The position numbers and the translations under genes are program-made. Source: Phlyctochytrium arcticum (lineage: Eukaryota > Chytridiomycota > Chytridiomycetes > Chytridiales > Chytridiaceae). Taken from it: DNA of 64,000 nt. Shown in pieces: positions 2,033-63,807 of this stretch (positions are counted from its first letter, which is position 1; each line of letters begins with the position of its first letter). The notes beneath the pieces are model-generated. The model saw only the letters and a program-made list of their open reading frames with translations, searched no databases and was not told where the DNA came from. The stretch lies in contig JAHLKI010000019.1 of the NCBI GenBank assembly GCA_025602905.1, forward strand, positions 372,001-436,000, in the 5' to 3' direction.

Positions 2033-3189
2033 TTACTGAAAAAGATCAGCAAAGTAAGCGTCCACCTCATTTGAGAAGGCCTTCTTCTCGTCCGTGTCGT
2101 CCACTTCTTGAGGCGCCCTCCAGATACGAGAAACTTCGTCCTTTGTGTATTGCTCTTTATGTCCGGGATGCGAATTATCGTCTTCATCAGCTGATTCAAC
2201 TGAATTTGCTATGGAAAAAGGATTAACGGACATGAGCTGATGTATTAAGCACGTGTGGCCTACAATCTGAAGATGCTTCTGAAGTTTGGGCAGTTGATTC
2301 ATTTGCGACTTCCGCGGTGACGTTGCTTGACCTGTCCTCACTTTCTTGAATCGTCTTCACGCGTTTTTGCCGCTTTCGAGCCTTCTTTTCACTACTCTTC
2401 CGTTTCCTTTCCTCTTTCAGCCTTCTCCTGGATTCTTTGATTTTGCGGTAGTTCAGCATGTATGCACAATCATTGCATAGGCGCAATTTGATCAGAGCAT
2501 TGTGTATCGTGCCAACTTCCTCATAACGGAAATTCACTTCCCAGGATCTCAAAGTAGGATCGCTTGCTTCGACATGGTCATTGTCGGATGCTCGCCGAGC
2601 ACTCCTATTCCGCGCGTTCCGCGACTCCTTTTCTGAAACATCACAAGCCAGATTGCCGCAGATGAATTGGCCTTTGCCAGAGATCACTTCCCGCTGAGTC
2701 CGCCACCGAAGAGCGATTTGGCCGGTCTTGAACTTTGATAAATTGGCTAGACAGTACTCTTTAAACAACCGGTCATAGTACTTTTTGGCAAGGCGGGACT
2801 CCCAATCCGCTCCTACATCGTCTTCATCATCTCGCAGGAACCTGAACGGATCACATTTGGTTCAGTTTCCCGTTAGCAATTCATTTCATTGTACAAACCT
2901 GTGCCTCTCTTTCAAAATCTGGATCTCTGTTCTCACACCTCTTTCCTGCTCAACTTTTCTGCGATCCTCTGCAGCTTTGCCGTAATAAGAGAGGTACTCT
3001 CCCATGAGCTTCCTATGGCGCTGTGTAATATAAAACAAACAGAATGAGATCAGATATATATCAGTTGTTTGTGTACTGGCTATATCTTACCTGGTATGCG
3101 GAAAGTTCTGACGCATCTTTGCGAAAAACCTCGGACAGTCTTTTTGTGTTACGATCTTGGTGCTCGTCCTCTCCGAACGTTCGAGGCAT
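2033..3189 (-). CDS. FRA10AC1: FRA10AC1 homologue (spliceosome-associated protein)
   Basis: Four exons (3189-3091, 3020-2899, 2841-2342, 2208-2033) encode 298 aa. The core reads DRLFKEYCLANLSKFKTGQI, ALRWRT...VISGKGQFICGN..C, SWEVNF and KLRLCNDCAYMLNYRK, which is the FRA10AC1 domain with its CxxC-type Zn ligands. The family is a nuclear protein found with catalytic spliceosomes. The last intron (2341-2209, GTGAGG...CCATAG) was placed because it links a Lys/Arg-rich region to the conserved C-terminal ending DAYFADLF. Without splicing the frame ends at 2223 with an unrelated tail, so intron retention would give a different C-terminus. Confidence 0.9.
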
Positions 3190-3540
3190 TTTCCATTGTT
3201 CTGCTGCACAAAAAGTTCAAAAACCACCAACTCCGAGACCTGTCATCTCGATGATAAATTACAGCCGAATATTGCTAAAATAAGTTTCGGACAGGTTCGT
3301 CCGAAAGCTGCGACGTGAACCGGGGAGTGCAGGAGAGCAGAGCGAAAGCCGCACATTGACGGCACCGTACGCACAGGGTGACAGGCATCACACGGAGTGG
3401 GAAACAGAGAATACTGGGTTCGTTCACAAAAAGTTAAAAATCTATGTACATTTGGCATTGGCGTTAAAAAACGCCATCAGCGGGCTGCCTGACCATACTG
3501 GACACGGCAGTAATCCCCAAACTTTTCAGTGTTGAGGCGA

Positions 3541-4094
3541 CTAGTATTCCTGAGAGGTAGCACCACTCTTCTCCTTGGTCTTGGTCTTTTGAGGCAACAG
3601 GGTTTGGTGAATGTTGGGCAAAACACCTCCTTGGGCAATGGTGACGTTTCCGAGAAGCTTGTTCAATTCCTCATCGTTACGGATGGCAAGCTGCAAGTGG
3701 CGGGGAATGATACGAGTCTTCTTGTTATCGCGGGCGGCGTTACCAGCCAATTCGAGAATTTCAGCAGCAAGGTATTCAAGCACAGCGGCCAGGTAAACAG
3801 GAGCGCCTACAAAGAATGGGAGCAGAGTCAATTAAAGCTCTCAGAATATTACAGTGCTTCAGGGAAGTCCACTGAAAGGCTTGAACACGTACCGGCACCA
3901 ACACGCTGAGCGTAGTTGCCCTTGCGAAGGAGACGGTGAATACGTCCAACTGGGAACTGAAGTCCGGCGCGAGCTGAGCGAGAGCTGCCGCCCTTGACAA
4001 CCTTGTCGGCACCAGCCTTTCCTTTGCCACCTGGAAACAGAATAAGAGGAGAACAGGAACGTGTGCAGAATGTGGCAAGTCACGTACCAGCCAT
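3541..4094 (-). CDS. H2A: Histone H2A with C-terminal SQEY (H2A.X-type)
   Basis: Three exons (4094-4088, 4030-3893, 3806-3541) encode 136 aa. The histone fold is complete: [20 protein letters not shown], then [24 protein letters not shown], then [17 protein letters not shown]. The C-terminus GATSQEY carries the SQE phi motif phosphorylated by ATM/ATR/Tel1-type kinases after DNA breaks. As in many fungi, this protein probably serves as both bulk H2A and H2A.X. The first exon is only 7 nt (Met-Ala plus one base). No H2B partner is seen next to it, unlike the divergent H2A-H2B pair usual in fungi. Confidence 0.96.
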
Positions 4095-4423
4095 TGTAAG
4101 TTACTAGAAAAAAGAGAGGTTAGAAGGATAAACGAGAGACACTGGTCGAGTTCTTGAAATGGCGTGCAGATGAGCCGACGTTGGATGTAGATGGAGTGCA
4201 AGCAGCGGGGGGGCGACGCGAGTGCATCGAGTTTATATACCCGTGGCCATTATGCGACACGGGCTGCCCGTTCTCATGGTGACCAAAATGGTTGGCCACC
4301 AACTAGTGACTGTGCCCCTTGCATTGGAGACTCAAATCATTCAATTGCAGCGTCATCAACAAATCTCAACAAATAGCTTACGCAGACGCAGAAGATCAGG
4401 AGCTGGATCAGGAAGGGAAGTAC

Positions 4424-4699
4424 ATGATTTTGATTGCCAAGAGGTACATACTCTGGAAAGGCATGGTGGGGAAGGTGTGAACTTTCGCCTCAAGCGACTC
4501 TGGCGTTGGTGGCCGCGTCTGAATGATGCGAATTGCTCCAGTCAGTTTTTACCCATTCCAGCTCTTCTTACCAGTTGCAGTATACATACAGGCGCTTCTT
4601 GCCGGAGGCATGTCTGTTTTGGGTTTTACGATGTTCAACGCGGATTTCCAAACATCATTGATACCAGAGTTACAAGCGACATCAGTTCAAGTTCAATGA
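4424..4699 (+). CDS. Possible small two-exon hydrophobic protein, unrecognised
   Basis: A tentative two-exon reading (4424-4474 and 4562-4699) gives 62 aa with a hydrophobic segment LPVAVYIQALLAGGMSVLGF. The donor GTGTGA and acceptor CATTCCAG are plausible. An upstream extension rich in Asp, Glu and Gln lies in the same frame but has no ATG, so the true start may be further upstream behind another intron. No family is recognised, and chance cannot be excluded. It sits between the H2A gene and the broken transcription-factor gene. Confidence 0.22.
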
Positions 4700-4939
4700 T
4701 AAAAATTCCAAAGTTGCAAGTAAACATCGCAATAACGCTGGTGGCAAGTAAGAACCACATCATCTCTCGGGGGCAAACCTGGCCCGCGATGGCAAATCGT
4801 GGTCGAAGGTATGATCTGGAAGATGTAGTGGGACGATCAACTCGGACTTTTCAGGATGTCAATCACTAGCGGAAATTTGTGAATCAAATATCACTGTGGG
4901 CCAAAAATGTTGGGAAGGATCGATAGTTGTATGAATATG

Positions 4940-59294: not shown

Positions 59295-59514
59295 AATGGC
59301 CTAAGTACCGGGTTAACAAGGAAGCCAAATGGGTGGCAAGCTGGGATATATGCTGCCCACAATTTGAGGGTTTGATTGGTGTCGAAGAGAGGAGGTTGGG
59401 GCCAGGTTGGGGCAGATTTTGCCAAGTCGTCGTCCCGCCCTTACGTAATTTCATTTGGGGACTGATGCGGAACCTGGGAATTTCCTCACATCGGAAAACA
59501 ATATATTCAGGAGA

Positions 59515-59525
59515 TTGCTAACGGC

Positions 59526-59558
<33 letters not shown>

Positions 59559-59910
59559 CAGGTGGATTACCATAGAATACATTTGTTACCTAACCACTTC
59601 AGTGTCCGATCCTTTCCTTTGTAGAAATGAATAGGTGCCAAAGGGCAGCAGCTATGGCCGCCCGCCCACCTGGCCAATCTCACCCCCGGGTAATCAAGTC
59701 GAGCAGGGTTGCTCAATTGTGAAGAAGCTCTGATGGAAAAAGGCCTGAGGAGACCTATGGCGGCAATAGCACACATGGTTTGAAGCACAGAGACAACCAC
59801 TTTCTCCCACAGACAGATGGCGTTTGAATCTGTATGTTACAGGTGTATGTCTATGGTAATCCACCTGCAAGGGGGTGCCGTTAACACTTTTAGGGGGGTG
59901 CCGTTAACAA
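59515..59910. mobile_element. Foldback/MITE-like element with inverted termini and C31 tract
   Basis: Left end: TTGCTAACGGCACC followed by a pure C run (59527-59557, 31 C), then GCAGGTGGATTACCATAG (59558-59575). Right end: CTATGGTAATCCACCTGC (59851-59868), a perfect 18-bp reverse complement, then GGGGGTGCCGTTAAC (59871-59885), repeated as GGGGGGTGCCGTTAACAA (59893-59910). The internal approximately 275 bp has no convincing gene. The structure is that of a small non-autonomous DNA transposon whose left C tract may be an expanded copy of the CCCCC in the terminal repeat. No target-site duplication could be fixed with confidence. Confidence 0.72.
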
Positions 59911-59950
59911 TTCCCTATATTCACATATCAGCATCTATTTTCAGGGGTGT

Positions 59951-60585
59951 CTACGTAGTCCTCCCACCCACTAGATAAGGTACAACGAGGCAGAGACCCC
60001 AACTATCTTCCATCATGATCTCCCCCTTCACGAGACTTCGCAACAGGATGTTGAACGCCCCAGTGCAGCCCCGCAGTCCCACATACCCACAGCCTTGTCC
60101 CGAAACGCCGTCCCCGCCCTTGAAAACCTTCTTTCCGCCAATGTTGTGATTGACGAAGGGACAGAAGGGGCACTGTTTTGTGGTATACTCTTCGGTGGTG
60201 CAGACGACATCCTTCACTCGTTCGGATCGGCCCTGGCTTTGGCGAAGAGTCGTTGTCGGAACGCAAAGTGACTGATGTATATCGCGGCTTTTCTGGTAGT
60301 TTTGGGAAGGGTACACGGACGTCCTTTGCGGGGTCCATCACAAGGTCCGTTCACATCGGAGAGATCTTTGATAGGGGGAAGCGATAGTTTCTTCCGGCGC
60401 TTCCGTACCATTCCCATCGTCATGAACCCCGGGAGAATGATGGTGTCATAGTTGCGAACGAGGAAGTTTGCAAACGCACCGTGTGCTTGCTTGACGATCC
60501 CAGCGACGCGGTCGTGGATGAGGTTTCTCTTGTATTGATACCCGCGTGGATTTCGGAAACTGCATCGTTGCGTTCGGCGTAACAC
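59951..60585 (-). pseudogene. Fanzor (eukaryotic TnpB-like nuclease) 3' remnant
   Basis: Read right to left, 60585-60214 contains KRNLIHDRVAGIVKQAHGAF and YDTIILPGFMTMGMVRKRRK, then SHFAFRQRLFAKARADPNE. After a one-base frame change near 60215 the protein continues ERVKDVVCTTEEYTTKQCPF, NIGGKKVFKG, GCGYVGLRGC and TGAFNILLRSLVKG to a stop at 59951. This order is the C-terminal half of TnpB/Fanzor: RuvC-II region, the alternative Glu before a zinc ribbon, and the RuvC-III NGAxNI motif. The RuvC-I Asp and guide-binding half are missing. The Pro in ILPGF replaces the canonical RuvC-II Glu, as in many Fanzors. Two ribbon Cys and the RuvC-III Asp (RD to RG) are lost, so it is inactive. Confidence 0.8.
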
Positions 60586-61440
60586 TGCAAATGTTGCATT
60601 ACAATCGGATTGGCAACTTCTTGAGCAACAATGCTGCTGACGTCGTTCATGTGAAAAGGTGTTCCGTTCATCGACTTATGCTCATCAACTTGTCCACCAG
60701 TCTGAAGAAAACATTTAGAAATGGCCGTACGAATTCCATTCGTTGTGACAAACCTTGGCGTGTAAATTTGCCAGCAGTTTTTCAATCGAATCGATGGGTG
60801 GTAATGCCAGTCAAAGTTGTCCAGCCCACCACCAAATCATTTTCAACACCGCATTTGACAGGGGGTGTGTCGGCATCGTCATGAGAATAGCGCAGAGGGC
60901 GGTTCTGCGATTGGGGAAAGGAAACCATTTTGGGTCATCTTCCCCATGCTGCGGGGCAGTGCATGAGTGGTCACTGGTGGTGGCTGGCTGCTCCCACTCA
61001 AATGTCTCCTGGTCTTTCTTCCGGCCGTCCAACTCCTCAGCTTCCGCTTCGAGTCGCGCTCTCTCTGCCTGCTCGCGAAGATAATGAAATAGGTTAAAGC
61101 CGTTCGTTGGCGATGTTTGGGTACTCGGATTGTACACGCCCAAGGCCTCCAAATCCACCTCCATCGGAGTAGGATCTGAAATGGTACTATCGTCGGTAGC
61201 TAAATGGTGTGGTATGGTATTGTCCGCTGGATTTGCCTGTGTGCTTTCCATATGCTTTTTCTTGACCGACATTTTGTTCTTGATGGAAATTCGGCAGGTT
61301 TTGCAGCGTACAGTATTGTTGCTTCCATCTACTGTGGCAAATTGCTGGTTGATTTGGTCCGTAACTCTTTTGTTTGCAGTAAACTTCCCCTCGGACATTT
61401 CCTTCCAGTCGCTCAAGTTGCTGTAAGTCCCCCACCTCAT
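60545..61440 (-). pseudogene. Decayed transposase (Plavaka/KDZ-like) fragment
   Basis: A minus-strand frame from about 61404 to 60811 reads EGKFTANKRVTDQINQQFAT and NTVRCKTCRISIKNKMSVKK (a CxxC knuckle), an acidic linker, and PKWFPFPNRRTALCAILMTM, then PTHPLSNAVLKMIWWW. It shifts frame near 60835 and continues NCWQIYTPRFVTTNGIRTAI, NGTPFHMNDVSSIVAQEVAN and PIVMQHLQCYAE. The pattern WFPF..r.tal.a.l...P.hplS followed by ND.asi.aqe.ANP.V..hl..Y.E is what I know from the N-terminal part of Plavaka/KDZ-like transposases. The catalytic half is absent: the frame runs straight into the Fanzor remnant at about 60550. The superfamily is an inference. Confidence 0.5.
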
Positions 61441-61734
61441 ATGGTCTTTCTTGTAGTCGTGGCAACTTGAAGATTCGGGTCAGAGGTGAAGTGCAACGGC
61501 GAGATAGAGAGAATGCTTGGACTTGGGACTGCGAAAGAATAGTCTTAATGACAGCATGTCCTTCTTCCATCGTCTTGACATCTTCAAAGACTGTTTCGAA
61601 AGGCGCGTAACTGGTCCAAGAACCTTCAACGTTCCTATTTTGAAAAGCACACATGGGTAAGTAATTGGCCTTGCTTGTAGCGGATCGCTTCCAAAGTTGG
61701 GCTGGACTTGTTGACCATTGCTAAAATGTGTCAA
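61441..61734 (-). other. Open-frame debris upstream of the transposase remnant
   Basis: Overlapping minus-strand frames (61480-61734 and 61187-61654) contain SWTSYAPFETVFEDVKTMEE and GHAVIKTILSQSQVQAFSLS, but no complete domain is recognised. They may be a further decayed part of the same element or its 5' exon. No terminal repeat matching the foldback element was found at this end. Confidence 0.3.
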
Positions 61735-61846
61735 AAATTTCCTTGGCCTCGTCCAAATTGCGCTCGCGGAAATAATTGGAACAAGCTGTTACACGAGGAT
61801 AGAACATTCGAAACGAAACTTTGAAAGCAACAAGATTTGTTTGTTC

Positions 61847-61856
61847 TACTCGAGTA
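61847..61856. promoter_or_regulatory. Palindrome TACTCGAGTA beside the mobile-element remnants
   Basis: A fourth copy, in the non-coding stretch between the transposase remnant and the aminopeptidase gene. Function unknown. Confidence 0.3.
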
Positions 61857-62070
61857 ATTCCGAAAAATTGATAGAACAAAGATTGTACATCAAGATGGAA
61901 GCTAAATGTCAGACGTTCGAGTTTCTCACGGACTCGAATTCGACACCAGGTACCACTACCGTACTAAGGACTAATAAACCTGGGCTTCGCCCTTAGACGA
62001 GGGGCATATCAACAAGTCGTTATTTCTATGGTCTACAAAGATACAAGGTGTTCTTGAGCATGTTGCGGTG

Positions 62071-63693
62071 CTAAAGTTCAACATCAACGGGGATATGCAT
62101 TTCAGCTGGGCCTACGTAAACGTCGCCCTCGAAGAGGTCAGCATAGGGGGCCATCAAGGAAGACCCCTCATCTAATCTATTAGGAATAAAGGAAGCATCC
62201 ATGGCAAAGACTCCGACGGAATGAGCGATGGCCTTGGAGTTGATGACCATTGCGGCTTCGTTAATGTTTTCAAAAGTGTCGCATGCCCGGTGGTAGCACT
62301 TGTCAGCTGCAACTCCCGCCTCGCCTCCAAATAGCTTGGCTTGTGCTGCAGTCTTGCGGTCTGATGCCCCGGTGAAAAGACCTCCGCTGGGGACGCCTTG
62401 AGCGATGAACGGGCCATAGTCCGATCGACCGTTGAAGGCGGTGGGCACAAAGCCAACCTTGTTGTCCTTGAAGTAGTTGTTGAATAAAGCTTCAATTTCA
62501 AGCGAGCCTTGCGGGGCCCCATTGCTTCCAAGGGAACCATCACCGTCGTAAACCCCGATGTAGTAGTTGGGAGAGGCAATCATATCAAACTAATAATGAG
62601 ATCCGGTCAGACAGTGCGCGACACATAGGATGTTGCACGGGAGACTTACGTTCAAGTATACTTTGGTGCGCTTCAAGTCTGCTTTGGGAAGCTGGTTTAC
62701 ATAGTATTTGGATCCAACGAGACCAATCTCTTCAGCTGCCCACCAGCTGAAGCGAACTTGATTCTTGAGGGTGTTGACATGAGGAGCTAAAAGTAGGGCA
62801 GTCTGCAGAATGCCGCTGGAGCCAGATCCATTGTCGTTCATGCCGGGGCCTGCTGGCACAGAGTCCAGGTGTGCGCCAATGTGGATGAGGTTCTGGGGAT
62901 CACCGCCCTTTGTGGTGGCGATGACATTGTGATTGTATCGGGCCGCCAGCTTTGTTTCGAAGGAGATGAGGGATGTGTTGACAGTCTTGCCGGTTTCGAG
63001 GGACGCGACCAATTGGTTGGCAACATCATCTGACTCAATGGCAACCGTGGGAAGATCAAGCACGGCACGGGTGGAGAAGGACGCACTCGTTGCATCAGTC
63101 TCGCTGGTCGACAAAATAATCAGACCTACAGCCCCAGCTGCTTTCGCGAAACTCGCTTTCTCGGCTGCGCTGCATCCATCGCCACGAACAGCTACAATCT
63201 TGTTTTGTAACGCGGACTGCTGATAATCCTGAGCTTGGCAACCTGCTTCCAGGGCATCACGACCGCCAACCAGAACGAGTTCAGCCTCGATTCCATCAGC
63301 TGAACTTTTCGTGACCTTGGACAAGGTAACGACATCTTCAATTGGAACTTGGTCAATCATCAGCTGAGTGACAGTGGCACTGGCACCGGCATTGAGTCTT
63401 TGAACTTGTACATCGAATGCACCTGTTGCTTCCAGCAGTTGCTTCACGTATGCAACAGAGTCATCGGCGCCTTGAGTTGCAGATGCGCGGTTGTTGCCGT
63501 TGGTCTTGGCGATGCTCTCCAAAGCACGCAAATGACGAGAAAGATCCTTGTACTCTATGCCCTGCGCGAGGGTTTTGGCAAGGGTAGCGGCCTCATCGCT
63601 GTACTTGATGGGATGAACCGGATTGCTTTGGGCGGACGCGATAGGTGCAATAGATAGGAGGGCCGCGGCGAGCGGGATGAGGTTCAATAGCAT
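62071..63693 (-). CDS. Secreted M28 aminopeptidase (aminopeptidase Y-like) with PA domain
   Basis: Two exons (63693-62650, 62589-62071) encode 520 aa. The ATG at 63693 opens a signal peptide (MLLNLIPLAAALLSIAPIAS). A PA (protease-associated) domain covers about residues 120-245. The di-zinc M28 peptidase follows: LIHIGAHLDSVPAGPGMNDN (His-Asp, Asp), WWAAEEIGLVGSKYYV (catalytic Glu pair), FDMIASPNYYI (Asp), YHRACDTFENI (His). The enzyme removes N-terminal residues from peptides, in the vacuole (yeast Ape3) or extracellularly. A TACTCGAGTA palindrome lies 115 bp upstream of the start. Confidence 0.94.
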
Positions 63694-63807
63694 AATGAGG
63701 GACGCGTTCACAGCTTGTTGACCAGGGCGATGACATCCCGAAACTAGGTTTTATAGTTGCGACCATCGACCGTCATTGCCTGCCGCTATCGCGGGTAGTT
63801 AATTGAC

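Follow-up and report, generated by a model that had tools for sequence, protein, structure and literature searches.

Fanzors are RNA-guided DNA-cutting enzymes, and their guide RNA is normally made from the right end of the element that carries them. The closest described systems are the Fanzor2 proteins that IS607 elements of eukaryotes carry (Bao and Jurka 2013, PMC3627910; PMC10711439), for example the mimivirus Fanzor2 (PDB 9b0l). SpuFz1 (PDB 8gkh), a Fanzor1 of the chytrid Spizellomyces punctatus, belongs to an element flanked by inverted repeats. Here we analyzed a 64-kb stretch (the window) of contig JAHLKI010000019.1 of Phlyctochytrium arcticum (Chytridiales). A segment of it (59930-60538, minus strand) comprises a 5'-truncated, frameshifted gene remnant and an element right end, and very probably represents the dead 3' portion of an IS607 element of Fanzor2 type, whose family is known here from chytrid and environmental sequences. 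What is shown directly is protein homology, the motif pattern, a predicted fold like that of TnpB/Fanzor2, TnpA-like sequence next to some relatives, and conservation of the right end, for which a structure is predicted. Coordinates refer to the window; C-numbers denote contigs of the same genome and P-numbers database proteins.

The longest family copy in the genome, C8:349k, has 731 open codons (C8:348997-351189). Its translation was compared with the window by tblastn and gave two matches, 48% over 149 amino acids (aa; 60663-60217) and 58% over 67 aa (60214-60014), with 115 and 84.3 bits and a summed E value of 2e-47, while none of 100 shuffled queries exceeded 33.1 bits. The matched stretch above 60540 is not Fanzor; Fanzor sequence proper begins at residue ~562 of the relative (window position 60538). 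The piece is a remnant of a Fanzor gene, and it is identified as such through its relatives.

The open frames at the locus, 60675-60214 and 60337-59951, both lie on the minus strand, and the single frameshift was placed at ~60217/60214. RuvC-I and all sequence before residue ~562 are missing, the 5' boundary being the junction with a repeat that we call repeat X. The RuvC-III site reads LRGC where the C8 relative has RRDN, LPGF stands where the family has LPEF, and of the zinc ribbon the first pair (CPFC) is kept while the third Cys is lost. With RuvC-I gone, Gly in place of the RuvC-III Asp and the frame shifted, the window copy has neither a complete catalytic triad nor an open frame; it is almost certainly a dead pseudogene, and should not cut DNA because of these same losses. 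The initial annotation, made from the letters alone, had already described a Fanzor remnant in a chytrid-like genome with one frameshift, a TTEEYTTKQC motif with the alternative Glu, a lost ribbon Cys and the Asp to Gly change, and all of these were found again. Its interval, 60585 to 59951, had to be moved at both ends: the start lay ~46 bp too far upstream, since 60540-60585 is the cut end of repeat X, and the right end carries the feature on to 59930.

Protein searches and tblastn revealed ten family loci in the genome (C8:349k, C8:378k, C35:54k, C13:35k, C16:614k, C16:337k, C33:101k, C10:483k, C11:825k and the window). All ten keep the right end (C11 weakly) and eight begin after residue 300 of 731, a count that may be biased by searches favoring the conserved C-terminus; the searches also gave a single piece from the N-side (C13:38313). 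The initial annotation had expected active relatives elsewhere in the genome. Relatives there are, but even the longest copy appears damaged: its upstream stretch looks disrupted in sequence, the Fanzor start MAxNVSEAKE being missing and the TnpA reading broken, and bases have been lost from within its right end by a deletion.

A database search identified 16 relatives, nine of which carry an organism name, in every case that of a chytrid: Borealophlyctis HK104_006030 and four others from that genus, two Geranomyces and two Thoreauomyces proteins. These nine belong directly to the family, with 44-62% identity across the query region, but are annotated as hypothetical, and several of their gene models appear to mix TnpA and Fanzor frames. 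The RuvC-I motif DPG is present in 13 of the 16 and in C8:349k; the window copy begins after it. In 15 of 16 relatives and in the window, the alternative Glu, as defined in PMC10711439, precedes the ribbon Cys by six residues; P0016 ends before the motif. No title among the Fanzor, IS607 and P. arcticum papers covered names the family, which is no proof of its being unpublished. When viral contigs were compared with the family alignment A1, 39 pattern stretches were obtained, none of them a relative.

As TnpB and Fanzor have a domain in common, the segment could also be a bacterial TnpB that entered by contamination or recent transfer. A cyanobacterial pro-Fanzor TnpB (Brasilonema, P0024), one of the database proteins matched, resembles the family in DPG, alternative Glu and ribbon and differs from it in being bacterial, about 400 aa long and having LPYF in place of LPEF. 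Against a bacterial origin, the same 538-kb contig carries an aminopeptidase exon (62590-63750) that is 99% identical over 91% to the P. arcticum protein P0036, the named relatives are exclusively chytrid, and the TnpA upstream of C8:349k seems to read across an intron when its sequence is compared with P0011. We regard this origin as extremely improbable.

The link to IS607 comes from TnpA. The IS607 transposase profile NF033518 matched P0003 (1.9e-20), P0011 (1.4e-15), P0009 (1.6e-13) and an exon upstream of C8:349k (1.5e-11), all four scores lying below the curated cut-off of 110 bits. Among the relatives scanned, Pfam Resolvase exceeded its cut-off only in P0003, and P0011 carries a MerR helix-turn-helix (6.4e-9). 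Searching the genome with a TnpA query gave one clear trace at C8:351132 (E 4e-34) and a weak one at C34:221801 (0.002); therefore, judging from these traces, the family may have lost autonomous movement in P. arcticum. From the sequences, TnpA seems to end inside the first part of Fanzor, which is read in another frame, with gene models mixing both. In the N-termini of P0003, P0007, P0008, P0009 and P0011, and at locus L018 (6129-6908 of that locus), TnpA and the upstream extension of the Fanzor frame are seemingly the same DNA read in different frames. Such overlapping frames, open in several species, are possibly a gene-model artefact. The only PF00239 serine-recombinase match in the genome (C6:884787-885092, 23.7 bits) lies inside a 1037-codon frame and at no family locus.

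In addition to the TnpA sequence found in some relatives, the family resembles Fanzor2 of IS607 elements in its DPG motif, alternative Glu, four-Cys ribbon and TnpB-like predicted fold, and in a predicted structured right end directly after the gene. Unlike those systems, it has ~140 extra N-terminal residues outside the fold match and sits on a long branch of its own, while its copy in the window is a pseudogene. In the unrooted tree the family forms its own clade (support 100/97, branch length 2.3); P0016 and P0032, two of 35 database proteins, in which cut motifs were missing, had been dropped, and P0009 and P0015 fill 31% of the columns. The family is a long-branched chytrid clade and not close kin of SpuFz1. 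The predicted fold, computed for P0002, resembles Fanzor2/TnpB and lies away from SpuFz1.

The initial annotation had named SpuFz1 as a characterized chytrid Fanzor, and a remnant of a SpuFz1-like Fanzor1, carried by a DDE transposon with terminal inverted repeats, would agree with several observations. SpuFz1 itself is chytrid-derived (PMC10432273) and shares the alternative Glu, SpuFz1-type remnants are present in this genome, for example at C16:337k (E 1.7e-29), and family proteins have the size of Fanzor1 (672, 682 and 686 aa in P0001, P0002 and P0012). However, the SpuFz1-type proteins form a separate lineage in the same genome, and a sequence match of the family to SpuFz1 was not detectable with the window frames, the 731-aa sequence or the family profile. 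TDG, a motif of the Fanzor1 WED domain, is absent in 15 of 16 relatives (a single TDG occurs in P0015). TnpA-like sequence accompanies P0003, P0009, P0011 and the C8 locus, and both tree and predicted fold point away from SpuFz1. A search for inverted-repeat partners of eight right ends, each compared with 20 shuffles, gave nothing above the best shuffle apart from marginal cases at C8:349k (25 v 23) and C16:614k (24 v 23). A Fanzor1 origin is therefore quite improbable, and the assignment to IS607-linked Fanzor2 is preferred.

As the initial annotation had suggested, the 3' flank keeps the right end of the family with its candidate guide-RNA region, though decayed; this was indicated by alignment with the other copies and by a match to a covariance model (R1) built from the right ends of six other copies, the window being left out. 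The tail that the copies have in common after the stop codon ends sharply, and RNAalifold predicted in it a hairpin and an outer helix of 4 bp each. All 4 of 4 pairs of the hairpin are kept in the window (ACCU[8]GGGU). Over seven sequences, 92.7% of cells were paired and three were doubly changed, compared to at most 67.9% paired in slid controls; shuffles reached the observed percentage in 22 of 500 cases and the doubly changed cells in 57 of 500. Among 12 further loci, R1 recovered C10 (5e-8), C8:349k (0.023) and C11 (0.037) and none of the nine other Fanzor-lineage loci. Rfam gave no match to the window at gathering score and one sub-threshold match, Bacteroides-1 (E 0.16). A search with a short right-end pattern was uninformative, as it found 46 matches versus 82 for the reversed control.

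PMC10432273 reports ghost loci in S. punctatus that have lost the gene but kept the ends. The window locus might likewise have a dead protein and a right end still making a guide RNA, with which another copy would work in trans. The preserved tail hairpin, one compensated pair in the hairpin and one in the outer helix, and the retention of right ends at the ten mostly truncated loci would fit. On the other hand, none of the ten genome loci holds a demonstrably intact nuclease, the outer helix has one or two broken pairs, a stretch of 34 nt in the model is reduced to 6 nt in the window scaffold, and the compensated pairs may predate decay. Solo right ends were not found in two DNA searches (five loci, all known), which were insensitive, also missing C13, C10, C11 and the window. 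We give a working guide RNA at this locus a very slim chance and keep to a dead Fanzor2-type fragment.

Several results weigh against that assignment. Of the two frames, which the initial annotation had proposed to search with TnpB/Fanzor profiles, the 128-aa frame matched PF07282 below its cut-off (19.1 versus 26.3 bits, E 0.0015) and the 5' frame had no Pfam match; the locus was also not among the 15 matches of a genome-wide PF07282 scan. With the family profile, nine PDB sequences came up at E values of 1 or less; most were low-complexity matches, and none was a Fanzor. The long branch stands apart from the Fanzor2-like set as well as from SpuFz1. The P0002 model has a mean predicted local distance difference test score of 67.5, low across much of RuvC-II/III, and its root-mean-square deviation to the best structural matches is large. 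The window copy, being truncated, contains no TnpA; the TnpA scan covered six of the 16 relatives, the other ten being represented by precomputed Pfam domains, and P0007 (whose gene model uses another frame), P0005 and P0013 had no TnpA match. At the right end, two of four standard pairs of the outer helix are present in the window in alignment A3 and three of four in the alignment of the model. Covariation over the seven sequences is modest, its score being reached in 15 of 500 shuffles and the doubly changed pairs in 189 of 500, and the single R1 match in the window at E ≤ 10 (59932-59988) is weak, with 14.0 bits and a rough E of 0.089. In further comparisons with solved structures, the window frames matched none, weak ribbon matches of the family profile were to Cas12m (E 0.061) and CasPi (0.27), and the single 731-aa sequence weakly matched Cas12f (0.023).

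By analogy with the described systems, an intact element would be moved by its serine-recombinase TnpA, and its Fanzor would bind a scaffold RNA for which the 3' end of the Fanzor gene together with the right end is the template. The sequence just beyond the right end would serve as guide, and the RuvC site of DPG, alternative Glu and Asp would cut matching DNA, helping the element to keep its place. RNA production, guide use, cutting and mobility of the living element are all inferred from homology.

The family might also represent a third deep Fanzor lineage, carried by IS607 with TnpA, of Fanzor1 size and without near relatives among the two known groups. PMC10711439 looked in vain for an IS607 transposon with a Fanzor1-like protein, and the family, if this were true, would be the kind of intermediate missing there; we consider it improbable. 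The window copy by itself changes little. The family behind it widens the IS607-linked Fanzors in chytrids, the phylum of SpuFz1, and both kinds of Fanzor occur in one genome. Borealophlyctis and Geranomyces have relatives whose gene models are open and which are suited to tests of a long Fanzor2-type nuclease, and the aligned right ends provide a first scaffold model for the family.

Table 1. Features of the Fanzor-derived piece and its neighbors in the window.
Feature	Position	Strand	Remarks
Fanzor2-type coding remnant	60014..60538	minus	matches residues ~562-726 of the 731-codon frame in C8; frame broken once near 60214-60217; without RuvC-I and N-terminal lobe
L-P-G of the LPEF block (LPGF here)	60427..60435	minus	relatives have E596 almost without exception
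Intact TTEEYTTKQC with the alternative catalytic Glu, six residues ahead of the zinc-ribbon Cys	60170..60199	minus	sequence and conservation
RuvC-III position, Gly for Asp	60068..60070	minus	relatives RRDN; D708 invariant in family alignment A1
Right end with decayed candidate guide-RNA scaffold	59930..60007	minus	last element base ~59930; model R1 match 59932-59988
Repeat X piece, interior cut, joined to the Fanzor piece	60539..61539	minus	coding frame 60811-61479
Miniature inverted-repeat transposable element (MITE)-like element	59551..59920	minus	9-10 bp beyond the Fanzor right end

A DNA search of the genome with 59480-61900 resolved three joined pieces, repeat X (61539-60539), Fanzor (60538-59930) and an inverted-arm repeat (~59920-59551). 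Repeat X has nine other DNA matches of 670-1001 bases and shorter ones in the genome, and its copies in C1 and C34 run on past the window cut point. Insertion of the Fanzor into repeat X was considered; the rest of X, ~320 bp in the C1 and C34 copies, is missing from the window, so that a simple insertion does not explain the junction. The 222-codon frame of repeat X has 28 protein matches in the genome, its own included, and no Pfam match. The MITE-like repeat has 13 other genome matches (72-93%) and shorter ones; its inverted arms lie at 59551-59592 and 59833-59875, and a run of 31 C starts at 59527 beside one arm.

In the window and at C16:337k, the 5' junction of the copy lies within the coding sequence of another element in the same orientation. 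At C16:337k, the SpuFz1-type Fanzor1 remnant (minus strand, oriented 4207-4840 of that locus; match to 8gkh, E 1.7e-29) runs directly into the C-terminal tail and right end of an IS607-type Fanzor of the window family, also in the same orientation. The C13:35k copy abuts a frame that we take from its motif to be transposase-like, with no Pfam match over the cut-off. At C2:1680k (2954-4822 of that locus), a 623-codon frame fuses a Copia-type RVT_2 domain (8.1e-35) to a Fanzor2-like C-terminus (PF07282, 2e-17).
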